Below are positions 19,975-22,681 of a stretch of DNA of 64,000 bases, piece by piece. Origin of the DNA: Acidobacteriota bacterium (GTDB lineage Bacteria; Acidobacteriota; Terriglobia; Terriglobales; Acidobacteriaceae); NCBI GenBank assembly GCA_003225175.1, contig QIBA01000038.1:62001-126000 (forward strand), read 5' to 3'. The notes beneath the pieces were generated by a model that did no database searches, was not told the DNA's origin, and worked only from the letters and a program-made list of their open reading frames with translations. Made by a program: the position numbers and the translations under genes. Each line of letters opens with the position of its first letter. Position 1 is the stretch's first letter.

Positions 19975-20421
19975 CTATCTTTTAGCGGAGAGAATGCCCA
20001 ACACGTCGCGCAGTCCTTGTTTGATGCTGCGCAGATCAGTGCCGTTCGAGGCCACTGGCGCGAATGGTAGCGCTGTTTGGGAGCGGTCGCGCTTGGATTC
20101 AGCCTTGATGAACTGACGTGCGCCGTTGATCGTGTAGCCCTCTTCGTAGAGAAGCTTTTTTACGCGCACGATATTCTCGACGTCCTTGCGACGGTAGAGG
20201 CGCTGGCCGGTATTGCTTTTACTCGGCTTGAGCTGAGGGAATTCCGTCTCCCAGAAGCGCAGCACATAGGCAGGTAAAGAGCAGAGCCTGGATACTTCAC
20301 CGATGCGGAAGAAAAGCTTTTCCGGGATCACGATCTCTTCCGCTGGCTTTCGCTTGCTTCGAGAGATTGCTGCCCTTGTACCCACGAGCGCATAGTATGT
20401 CGGGCTGTAGTCAAAGGTCAA
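19975..20421 (-). CDS. MerR-family transcriptional regulator
   Basis: The 148-residue protein carries a MerR-type winged helix: FFRIGEVSRLCSLPAYVLRFWETEFPQL, then RLYRRKDVENIVRVKKLLYEEGYTINGARQF. The region after the DNA-binding domain is short and lacks the metal-binding Cys of classical metal sensors, so an inducer cannot be proposed. Basic residues precede the domain. The start is uncertain: the frame opens with TTG at 20421, and an in-frame GTG at 20385 would shorten it by 12 residues. It leads a two-gene unit with the hypothetical gene downstream. Confidence 0.88.
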   Translation of the reverse strand: MTFDYSPTYYALVGTRAAISRSKRKPAEEIVIPEKLFFRIGEVSRLCSLPAYVLRFWETEFPQLKPSKSNTGQRLYRRKDVENIVRVKKLLYEEGYTINGARQFIKAESKRDRSQTALPFAPVASNGTDLRSIKQGLRDVLGILSAKR

Positions 20422-20442: not shown

Positions 20443-20641
20443 TTGTCATTCCGAACCGCGGTTGGTGCGGTGAGGAATCCCTACGAGTTCCGACTCGGTA
20501 GAGCTGGTCGAGGATCGCCGAGCTTTCTGAATTGCGTGCGAGAGATAGTTGAACGTCACGTTTTGGAGGATCGCATGCGCCGGCATGGTAACAGTTCGTA
20601 GGGATTCCTCTCCGCCACACAGCGGCGGTTCGGAATGACAA
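20443..20641. repeat. MITE-like element with 45-base inverted ends
   Basis: About 200 bases are bounded by imperfect inverted repeats. The left end (20443-20486) starts ttgtcattccgaaccgcgg and contains gaggaatccctac; the right end (20596-20641) reads back the same as gtagggattcctc...ttcggaatgacaa. The inside holds no gene. A shorter relative with the same arms lies at about 38053-38163. The size and ends suggest a small non-autonomous mobile or palindromic element. Confidence 0.7.
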
Positions 20642-20654
20642 CGGGACCACCGAA

Positions 20655-20684
20655 AATGAAAAAGGCCTTCGAGATTCGAAGGCC
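20655..20684 (-). terminator. Intrinsic terminator of the Lys-rich peptide gene
   Basis: On the minus strand a nine-base-pair stem (20676-20684 with 20664-20672) with a three-base loop is followed by five T residues. It lies 26 bases after the TAA of the small gene at 20710-20760. Confidence 0.85.
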
Positions 20685-20709
20685 GCAAATCAGTTTGCCT
20701 GGCAGCAGG

Positions 20710-20760
20710 TTATTTCTTTTTCGCTGCTTTCTTCTTTGTGGCCTTCTTTTTCATAGGCAT
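20710..20760 (-). CDS. 16-residue Lys-rich microprotein
   Basis: A very short gene encodes MPMKKKATKKKAAKKK: ten Lys in 16 residues, no acidic residue, net charge about +10. The support is its control signals. A perfect aaggagg Shine-Dalgarno lies nine bases before the ATG, and a strong intrinsic terminator lies 26 bases after the TAA, so this is a complete small transcription unit. The sequence resembles the Lys/Ala-rich tails of histone-H1-like bacterial proteins, suggesting nucleic-acid binding, but function is unknown. It could also be the remnant tail of a longer protein, although the ribosome-binding site argues against that. Confidence 0.65.
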   Translation of the reverse strand: MPMKKKATKKKAAKKK

Positions 20761-20908
20761 GGTTATGTTCCTCCTTGTGGAACGTTCTCCCTTGGTTTGG
20801 AGAAGCTGTACAAGCTGCTCCGCTGATTGCATGGGCCTACTAACTACCACAAGATATTGTGCTCACTGATTCGTGATGTCAAGAATTATTCACAAAAGTT
20901 CCGGCTCA

Positions 20909-20923: not shown

Positions 20924-22681
20924 ATGCCTGATCCGGTAGAACTGGAAATTTTTCGCGAACTCTTTCACTCGATCGCGGAAGAGATGGGAGCATCGTTGCG
21001 GCGAAGCGCGTTTTCTCCCAACATTCGTGAGCGGCGTGATTACTCGTGCGCGGTATTCGATCGAAGTGCGCAGGTAATTGCAATGGGCGATCACATGCCT
21101 GTGCATCTCGGCTCGATGCCCATGTCGGTGCGAGCAGCCATCGAGCGCCTTGATCTTGGTCCAGGCGACGTTGCCATGGTGAACGATCCGTTCGCCGGCG
21201 GCACGCACCTGCCGGACATCACGTTAGTGGCTCCTGTGTATGTCGACCGCGATCGAACGGAAAACTCTCAGCGGCTAAATCTTCGTGAAAAAAGCTTTAA
21301 GGAGGGCCACGACTTCAGTCGTGCCGTGCAAGAAAAAAAAATCAAGCTAATGTCTAAGAGTCTTCTTGTGCCTCAAGTCGACACCGCTAAAGCCGTGCTT
21401 CTTCCTAAATCAAGGAAGCCTGATTTCTATGTTGCTTCCCGAGCTCACCACGCTGATGTGGGCGGGGCAGCGGCCGGTTCCATGGGACTCTCGCGTGAAA
21501 TCTATCAGGAGGGATTACGCATTCCTCCGGTTTTTCTCGTGCGCAGCGGGACGATGCAGCGCGATGTTCTGCAGATGGTTCTGGCCAATGTGCGTACGCC
21601 CGAGGAGCGTGAAGGAGATTTAGGCGCGCAGATCGCCGCCTGCAACACCGGAGCACGACGCCTGCAGGAAGTTTGCGATCGTTATGGCTTGTCGCGCATG
21701 CATCGGGCAAGCGAGGAACTGCAGGATTACGCTGAACAGATGACCCGATCGCTGCTGGAGGGAGTCCCTCCCGGCACGTATTCGGCAGAGGATTTTCTCG
21801 ACAACGATGGCATCAGCGATCGGCCAGTTCGCGTTATTGTGAAAATTCGCATCGAGAAGCGAAACCGACGAAGCTCGCAACCGTTGGTCACGATTGACTT
21901 CAGTGGCAGCGATCCTCAAGTTGAAGGCAGTATCAACGCTGTCGAAGCGATCACTTACTCCGCGTGCTTCTATGTCTTTCGTTGTCTGCTGGCTGAGGAT
22001 GTTCCCGCAGCGGCTGGCATCATGCGTCCGATCCGCGTGATTGCGCCGGAAGGGACTGTGATAAATGCGCGTCCTCCCGCTGCGGTAGCGGGAGGCAATG
22101 TTGAGATGTCCCAGCGCATTGTGGACACACTTTTTCGCGCGCTTGCCCGAGCAATGCCGGAGCGCATTCCTGCTGCATCGTCGGGGACGATGAATAATCT
22201 CACCATCGGCGGGCTCTTCCCTCCTGGCCACGCTCGCGCAGGCGAGCCCTTTGCTTATTACGAGACGATCGCCGGCGGAATGGGTGCGCGGCCCACACAA
22301 GATGGAATCTCAGGTGTGCACACGCACATGACAAACTCGCTGAACACTCCCGCGGAAGCGCTCGAGTATGCATATCCATTTCGAGTGACTCGGTACTCCC
22401 TCCGTCCAAATAGTGGAGGCATTGGAAAGCAGCGCGGCGGCGATGGCATTGTGCGCGAGCTGGAGCTGCTGTGCGATGCCGATGTCACGTTGCTTGCAGA
22501 TCGACGGGTGCGTGGCCCTTACGGTCTTGGTGGTGGAAAGGATGGCATGCCGGGACGCAATGCTGTTGTTAAGAGTGACGGAACCGAGATTCCGATCCCG
22601 CCAAAGGGGAGTGTTCGTCTACGCAGAGGCGACAAGATCAGGATTGAATCCCCGGGTGGCGGTGGTTGGGGCGAGAGTTGA
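20924..22681 (+). CDS. Hydantoinase B/oxoprolinase family protein with in-frame repeat insertion
   Basis: The 585-residue product matches the HyuB family (ATP-dependent hydantoin or 5-oxoproline hydrolysis, normally with HyuA). Markers are GASLRRSAFSPNIRERRDYSC, MPVHLGSMPMSVRAAIE, GGTHLPDITLVAPVYV, VASRAHHADVGG, EGLRIPPVFL, GGNVEMSQRI and the Gly-rich end SPGGGGWGES. Between APVYV and VASRAHHADVGG, where the family has only a short loop, sit about 48 extra residues rich in Lys (about 115-164). Their DNA contains the palindrome cacgacttcagtcgtg and reads as an inserted dispersed repeat that preserves the frame. I chose the ATG at 20924 because a TATAAT lies just upstream of it. No hyuA is in the window, so the enzyme may be orphan or pair with a distant subunit. 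Confidence 0.88.
   Translation: MPDPVELEIFRELFHSIAEEMGASLRRSAFSPNIRERRDYSCAVFDRSAQVIAMGDHMPVHLGSMPMSVRAAIERLDLGPGDVAMVNDPFAGGTHLPDITLVAPVYVDRDRTENSQRLNLREKSFKEGHDFSRAVQEKKIKLMSKSLLVPQVDTAKAVLLPKSRKPDFYVASRAHHADVGGAAAGSMGLSREIYQEGLRIPPVFLVRSGTMQRDVLQMVLANVRTPEEREGDLGAQIAACNTGARRLQEVCDRYGLSRMHRASEELQDYAEQMTRSLLEGVPPGTYSAEDFLDNDGISDRPVRVIVKIRIEKRNRRSSQPLVTIDFSGSDPQVEGSINAVEAITYSACFYVFRCLLAEDVPAAAGIMRPIRVIAPEGTVINARPPAAVAGGNVEMSQRIVDTLFRALARAMPERIPAASSGTMNNLTIGGLFPPGHARAGEPFAYYETIAGGMGARPTQDGISGVHTHMTNSLNTPAEALEYAYPFRVTRYSLRPNSGGIGKQRGGDGIVRELELLCDADVTLLADRRVRGPYGLGGGKDGMPGRNAVVKSDGTEIPIPPKGSVRLRRGDKIRIESPGGGGWGES
21270..21415. repeat. Palindromic repeat inserted in the hyuB frame
   Basis: The insert contains a 16-base hairpin (21308-21323) and, near its ends, cagcggctaaa and accgctaaagccgtgcttcttcc, which look like fragments of a second palindromic motif. 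The A-rich run of nine A residues at 21333-21341 is unlike the surrounding codons. Insert boundaries are approximate. Confidence 0.65.

Follow-up and report, generated by a model that had tools for sequence, protein, structure and literature searches.

The window, a 64,000-nucleotide stretch of an Acidobacteriaceae genome, carries on its minus strand a complete small transcription unit (20655–20882, as read in the window sequence), in which a promoter, a ribosome-binding site and a terminator of its own serve the coding sequence of a 16-residue, mostly Lys peptide, MPMKKKATKKKAAKKK. We read it as an independently transcribed gene, from a family absent from the libraries searched, for a free-standing polycationic micropeptide that acts by its charge on polyanions; the probability of this whole reading, whose functional part is inferred, is about 0.56. 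Comparison established a conserved unit of promoter, Shine-Dalgarno sequence (SD), ORF and terminator, purifying selection, two unlinked gene types and recurrence in other phyla. It is very probably a real translated gene, a conclusion that is well supported by comparison and untested by experiment.

The transcription unit and its conservation in the genus

The coding sequence (20710–20760, minus strand; stop TAA at 20712–20710), which reads ATGCCTATGAAAAAGAAGGCCACAAAGAAGAAAGCAGCGAAAAAGAAATAA from 20760 to 20710, specifies 16 amino acids, ten of them Lys. The ribosome-binding site AAGGAGG (20770–20776, minus strand) lies nine bases before the ATG (20760–20758). Downstream, a small hairpin, GCAAA-CTGA-TTTGC (20685–20698, minus strand), stands between the stop and an intrinsic terminator (20659–20684, minus strand), GGCCTTCGA-ATC-TCGAAGGCC-TTTTT, whose 9-pair stem spans 20684–20664. 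The terminator was supported by terminator search, folding and the genus alignment and is the best in the region. The initial annotation had proposed a 16-codon Lys-rich frame with AAGGAGG nine bases upstream and a strong terminator 26 bases beyond the stop, and all of these elements are present on the minus strand at the correct distances. The promoter, which it had not listed, consists of the −35 box TTGACA (20877–20882, minus strand), the same in six of six genus genomes, and, 17 bases further on, the −10 box CAATAT (20854–20859, minus strand), which is invariant in the genus and lies inside the motif CAATATCT. Transcription is expected to begin near 20847, and the start has not been mapped. 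The 5' leader of about 85–90 nt (20761–20853, minus strand), delimited from the genus alignment, the fold and a leader-only model, contains GTTCC/GGAAC arms, and pairing around the SD is possible in the genus. Only 1 of 200 dinucleotide shuffles folded better than the window unit (z −3.5).

All six genus genomes contain the unit, and its peptide is identical in every one of them. All changes in the coding sequence are synonymous third-position substitutions (CCN, GCA/GCG, AAA/AAG), apart from TAA/TAG at the stop. Promoter hexamers, SD, reading frame, peptide and both 3' stems are constant, while the hairpin and terminator loops and the sequence past the terminator vary; the small hairpin keeps its stem with a loop altered in one genome (G005), and the core of the terminator stem is likewise invariant around a variable loop. 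The conservation of frame, SD and terminator, for which the initial annotation had suggested looking in related genomes, thus holds across the genus (n = 6) and supports its claim that a tiny, highly basic peptide has a genuine gene here, organized as a separate transcription unit.

Two protein-coding genes flank the unit. A hydantoinase B/oxoprolinase gene (20924–22681, plus strand; Pfam PF02538, E = 4.7e-202) is divergent and lies outside it, and a gene for a MerR-type regulator (19975–20421, minus strand; Pfam PF13411, E = 6.4e-19) follows downstream on the same strand. At 21260–21440, about 50 residues (..FKEGHDFSRAVQEKK..) are inserted in frame in the hydantoinase B gene. The insertion holds a short palindrome, CACGACTTCAGTCGTG, at about 21310 and is absent from the three other genus copies compared (L004, L005 and L007); it is possibly a REP-like element translated in frame. 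Just past the terminator, 20444–20641 forms an imperfect palindrome of roughly 200 bp with the ends GTCATTCCGAACCGC and GCGGTTCGGAATGAC, and its end motif has no second occurrence anywhere in the window. A search of Rfam with the window unit gave nothing at the gathering score, and the flanks gave only tRNAs and one sub-threshold match outside the unit (MIR3454, E = 0.13), which is most likely just this palindrome.

Two unlinked gene types in Terriglobia

A simple pattern, in which an SD and an ATG are followed by KK, a gap of at most 30 bases, a second KK, one further codon and a stop (8–18 aa), matched 71 of the 399 genomes of the class, against two genomes for a reversed-pattern control, and a version with a longer middle matched 42 genomes versus one. 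A few of the matches are out of frame or count one unit twice, from two SD positions. Because the matches far exceed the reversed control, a chance origin is excluded. The family is defined by a Lys-rich ORF of 11–32 aa with an adjacent SD and, no more than about 80 nt from the stop, an intrinsic terminator, and the window unit meets this definition.

The class has two unlinked, single-copy gene types, and many genomes contain two units. Type A has a TTGACA-17-TATACAT promoter, a leader with two hairpins and an SD set in GGGAGAATAG, and its terminator takes the form GGGGACGC..GCGTCCCC. Type B, to which the window unit belongs, has the promoter TTGACA-17-CAATATCT(TG), and its leader and terminator are unlike those of type A. 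The window unit conforms to the type B signature, TTGACA-17-CAATATCT...AAGGGA...GGAGG. The motif CAATATCT around the −10 box is kept across all type B units, most of which continue ..TTG, and the −35 box TTGACA is present in every type B leader read (the search pattern itself demanded TTGAC). The genome under study has both types; its type A copy lies outside the window (G000:C65:21187-21250) and encodes MATKKKAAKKSAKKKK. Trailers of both types fold far more stably than shuffled sequences, with a mean z of −4.6 for 60 type A units and −3.5 for 19 type B units. In genus g35 (L113–L124), the type A terminator hairpin is often longer and has lost the T-run, for example CAGAAGGGGGACGC..GCGTCCCCCTTCTG, and the peptides are extended to 19–23 aa. 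Units of family f4 (L035 and L103–L105) have a distinct conserved leader, with TTACCCGGAAGAGGTGAGCAATAGT in three of them.

Substitutions between units of equal length fall mainly at third positions, which account for 1134 of 1643 differences in 143 type A pairs and 167 of 278 in 38 type B pairs. Synonymous and non-synonymous codons number 835 and 417 in type A and 123 and 85 in type B, whereas the expected synonymous share is 18–33%. Across 90 units of 11–30 aa, Lys makes up 53% and Ala 26% of the residues, and the charge ranges from +7 to +15. The choice of Lys codons is ordinary (AAG 71%, compared with 70% in nine genes of the window). In 52 of 62 genomes, the two unlinked copies end in the same residue (H, K or R), against a mean of 25 after shuffling, with relatedness uncorrected.

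In two bacterial families, type A loci often adjoin rmuC, a UvrD-like helicase gene or both, usually in convergent orientation, and the gene after a type A unit is mostly convergent. The hydantoinase B neighbor is common to 13 type B loci and the MerR neighbor to 10; the latter was not found at L005, L070, L095 and L099. This sharing of neighbors points to vertical inheritance from before those families split, but synteny is incomplete.

The longest family members had no match in Pfam or NCBIfam, so no curated H1-like model covers them; a 16-aa member is too short to scan. Neither the exact peptide strings nor any description of the family was found in the literature searched, which did not extend to most subscription journals or bioRxiv. 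In an earlier survey of mini-proteins, the shortest acidobacterial protein annotated, in two genomes, has 37 aa (PMC2602986). Four loci of this bacterial family (L403, L405, L408 and L411) encode long proteins (about 280–340 aa) that are acidic in the N-terminal part and carry an H1-like tail rich in Lys and Ala. As possible replacements of lost tiny genes, such proteins match in 10 of 15 genomes without the tiny genes (losses in genera g32, g45, g64 and g44) and in 3 of 10 with them, but their relatives occur also in genomes having tiny genes, which leaves replacement unproven.

Leaders without coding bases and peptides outside Terriglobia

To separate the peptide from the RNA, we built a covariance model of type A leaders that contains no coding base (R1) and a corresponding leader-only model for type B (R2). 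Both were trained on ORF-bearing units and are biased to the family, though they lack coding sequence. R1 matches 104 of 120 family genomes, at one place each except in one genome, and a Lys-rich ORF of 12–32 aa follows the SD at all 70 places read, about 40 of which are units not read before. R2 matches 58 of the 120 genomes and recovers the window unit, which was one of its seeds, at E = 7e-15; an ORF is present at 51 of 53 places read, so that 121 of 123 leaders of both types carry one. In the type A leader hairpins, pairing is kept through changes on both sides in a narrower alignment with a named structure. In a broad alignment of type A leaders, RNAalifold found no structure, apparently owing to rows in which stem 1 had been misplaced by MAFFT.

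Retention of the terminator with loss of the peptide would, according to the initial annotation, refute the gene. This was seen in only two genomes, both of genus g32 (G036 and G220), in which promoter, SD-like site and terminator are kept, the ORF is lost and there is no type A match. At these loci (L396 and L400), an ORF-less type B remnant lies upstream of the MerR gene, a natural loss of the peptide.

We also scanned contigs of GTDB representatives. Among the matches listed, an 11–17 aa pattern, MA(A/T)KKKAKKK..KKK, recurs in Alpha-, Beta- and Gammaproteobacteria, Omnitrophota and others. In Betaproteobacteria, MAAKKKAKKKTAKKK-like peptides are encoded downstream of a lysA-type decarboxylase gene, in units with their own leader hairpin and the terminator GAGCGGGAGC..GCTCCCG; the unit is present in 14 of the 15 nearest relatives and in few of the other 105, a patchy occurrence. 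In Alphaproteobacteria, most of the 23 genomes nearest to G501 encode MAAKKKAKKKAAKKKK, with synonymous differences between them, and plasmid records searched with an alphaproteobacterial unit gave no match. Similar units were seen, again among the matches listed, in Gammaproteobacteria, Omnitrophota, a few Bacillota and DPANN-archaeal bins. Three close Woesearchaeota-like genomes have clean units, and most other matches in this AT-rich group look like chance. Two gammaproteobacterial units (L174 and L211) follow, at a distance of about 60 bases, a replication initiator gene of the Rep3 plasmid type; a ParA-like gene is close by.

Leaders and terminators are wholly different between these groups, while the peptide pattern stays. 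The peptide is therefore the constant element, and this is the strongest argument that it is the product; together with the leader-only searches, it adds to the case made in the genus. Descent, transfer and convergence could not be separated from 12–16 residues of low complexity, and convergence is possible. Contamination of bins cannot be excluded for single MAG hits outside Terriglobia.

Possible roles and relation to known systems

Sigma-70-like promoters and structured short mRNAs would give steady and probably high expression, an inference made without transcript or peptide data. The disordered peptide would act by its charge, binding polyanions as the Lys/Ala-rich tails of H1-like bacterial proteins do; among experimental precedents, the KPAA tail of AlgP/PhaF comes nearest (PMC9239181). 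Given a real gene, we consider such charge-driven binding moderately likely, by inference and in the absence of binding data. The initial annotation had compared the peptide with tails of histone-like proteins as a possible binder of DNA, RNA or membranes; the likeness is fair as a description of composition, and no data bear on the binding partner. The target would most likely be nucleoid DNA or RNA, possibly polyphosphate, and the peptide may serve as a diffusible protamine- or polyamine-like counter-ion. No evidence here separates DNA, RNA, the ribosome and polyphosphate as the partner.

Several rival explanations were weighed. The polycation might pack or space polyphosphate, as the tail of AlgP does, rather than bind nucleic acid. 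A precedent for this role is AlgP/PhaF, in which peptides of the KPAA repeat bind DNA and polyphosphate granules depend on the tail for their spacing (PMC9239181), and the hosts are environmental and often starved. The neighboring ORFs that were identified show no link to polyphosphate genes, however, and we regard this role as rather unlikely. A micro-protein bound to the ribosome or rRNA, working like eukaryotic eL41, would account for the size, the charge, the expected strong constitutive expression and the single copy of each type. A bare Lys/Ala repeat that varies from 11 to 30 aa nevertheless does not resemble a peptide enclosed in a defined pocket of rRNA, and the patchy occurrence outside Terriglobia also makes a ribosomal role improbable.

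The hairpins of type A leaders that covary, the conserved 3' hairpins and the g32 leaders without an ORF would suit a small regulatory RNA with an incidental ORF. The synonymous substitution pattern, the near-universal ORF behind the leaders and the same peptide elsewhere with unrelated RNA parts leave this account very unlikely as a whole; the RNA may also act, because leader and terminator are themselves strongly conserved. In an attenuator, ribosome stalling at Lys codons of a leader peptide would set terminator read-through into the downstream gene, and a short ORF rich in Lys codons before a terminator has this form. Type B units often precede the same-strand MerR gene, and units in Betaproteobacteria are close to lysA, though on its downstream side. 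Against this, type A mostly faces a convergent gene, several type B loci lack MerR, and the next gene in Proteobacteria is in most cases convergent or varies; inspection of the folds, by eye only, showed no alternative antiterminator. As a general explanation, Lys attenuation was rejected from the neighbors, which include no conserved same-strand downstream gene of a cognate pathway, and only a slim chance remains for it. A secreted or membrane-active cationic peptide (antimicrobial or cell-penetrating) is scarcely tenable: the net charge is of the cell-penetrating type, but the peptide is almost only K and A, without a signal sequence or a hydrophobic face, and no linked export or immunity gene was noticed among the neighbors examined.

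Returning to the polycationic micropeptide gene, we propose more tentatively, at somewhat less than even odds, that it represents a purely charge-based family (11–30 aa) missed by annotation and expressed from dedicated strong units, a polycation made from a gene, which would buffer or compact nucleic acids or polyphosphate in most sampled genomes of one large bacterial family, recurrently in other bacterial phyla and perhaps in DPANN archaea. Annotation and standard proteomics would be blind to it, because the genes fall below the usual size limits and a half-Lys peptide has no useful tryptic fragments; a similar trypsin bias was noted for AlgP (PMC9239181). The family would rank among the shortest conserved protein families of bacterial genomes, and its units are single-copy and regular enough for immediate tests in cultured soil bacteria. 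Should it bind nucleic acid or polyphosphate, it would offer a minimal model, accessible to genetics, of how charge organizes the nucleoid, RNA or granules.

Among known systems, attenuator leader peptides of the hisL and thrL type are short ORFs rich in one amino acid and followed by a terminator, whereas the micropeptide units have no conserved downstream biosynthetic gene and the type A terminator usually faces a convergent one. Eukaryotic eL41, of about 25 residues, is very basic and Arg-rich, with a fixed sequence and a stand-alone gene; the micropeptide is alike in tiny size, high basicity and stand-alone gene, and a sequence relation is not testable. Protamines and polyamines are small, strongly basic counter-ions of nucleic acids, from which the micropeptide differs in being Lys/Ala rather than Arg-based, ribosome-made in bacteria and without a demonstrated packaging role. 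The long acidic/Lys-Ala-rich proteins (L403, L405 and L408, about 330 aa) share a KA-rich tail with similar repeats and differ in their large size and acidic N-terminal part. AlgP/PhaF of Pseudomonas and H1-like tails have the same Lys/Ala(/Pro) composition, disorder and high positive charge, and Hc1-type and Bordetella-type H1-like proteins are further bacterial relatives in kind. H1-like proteins, however, have 100 or more residues or are tails of larger proteins, whereas the micropeptide is a whole protein of 11–30 residues with its own promoter and terminator.
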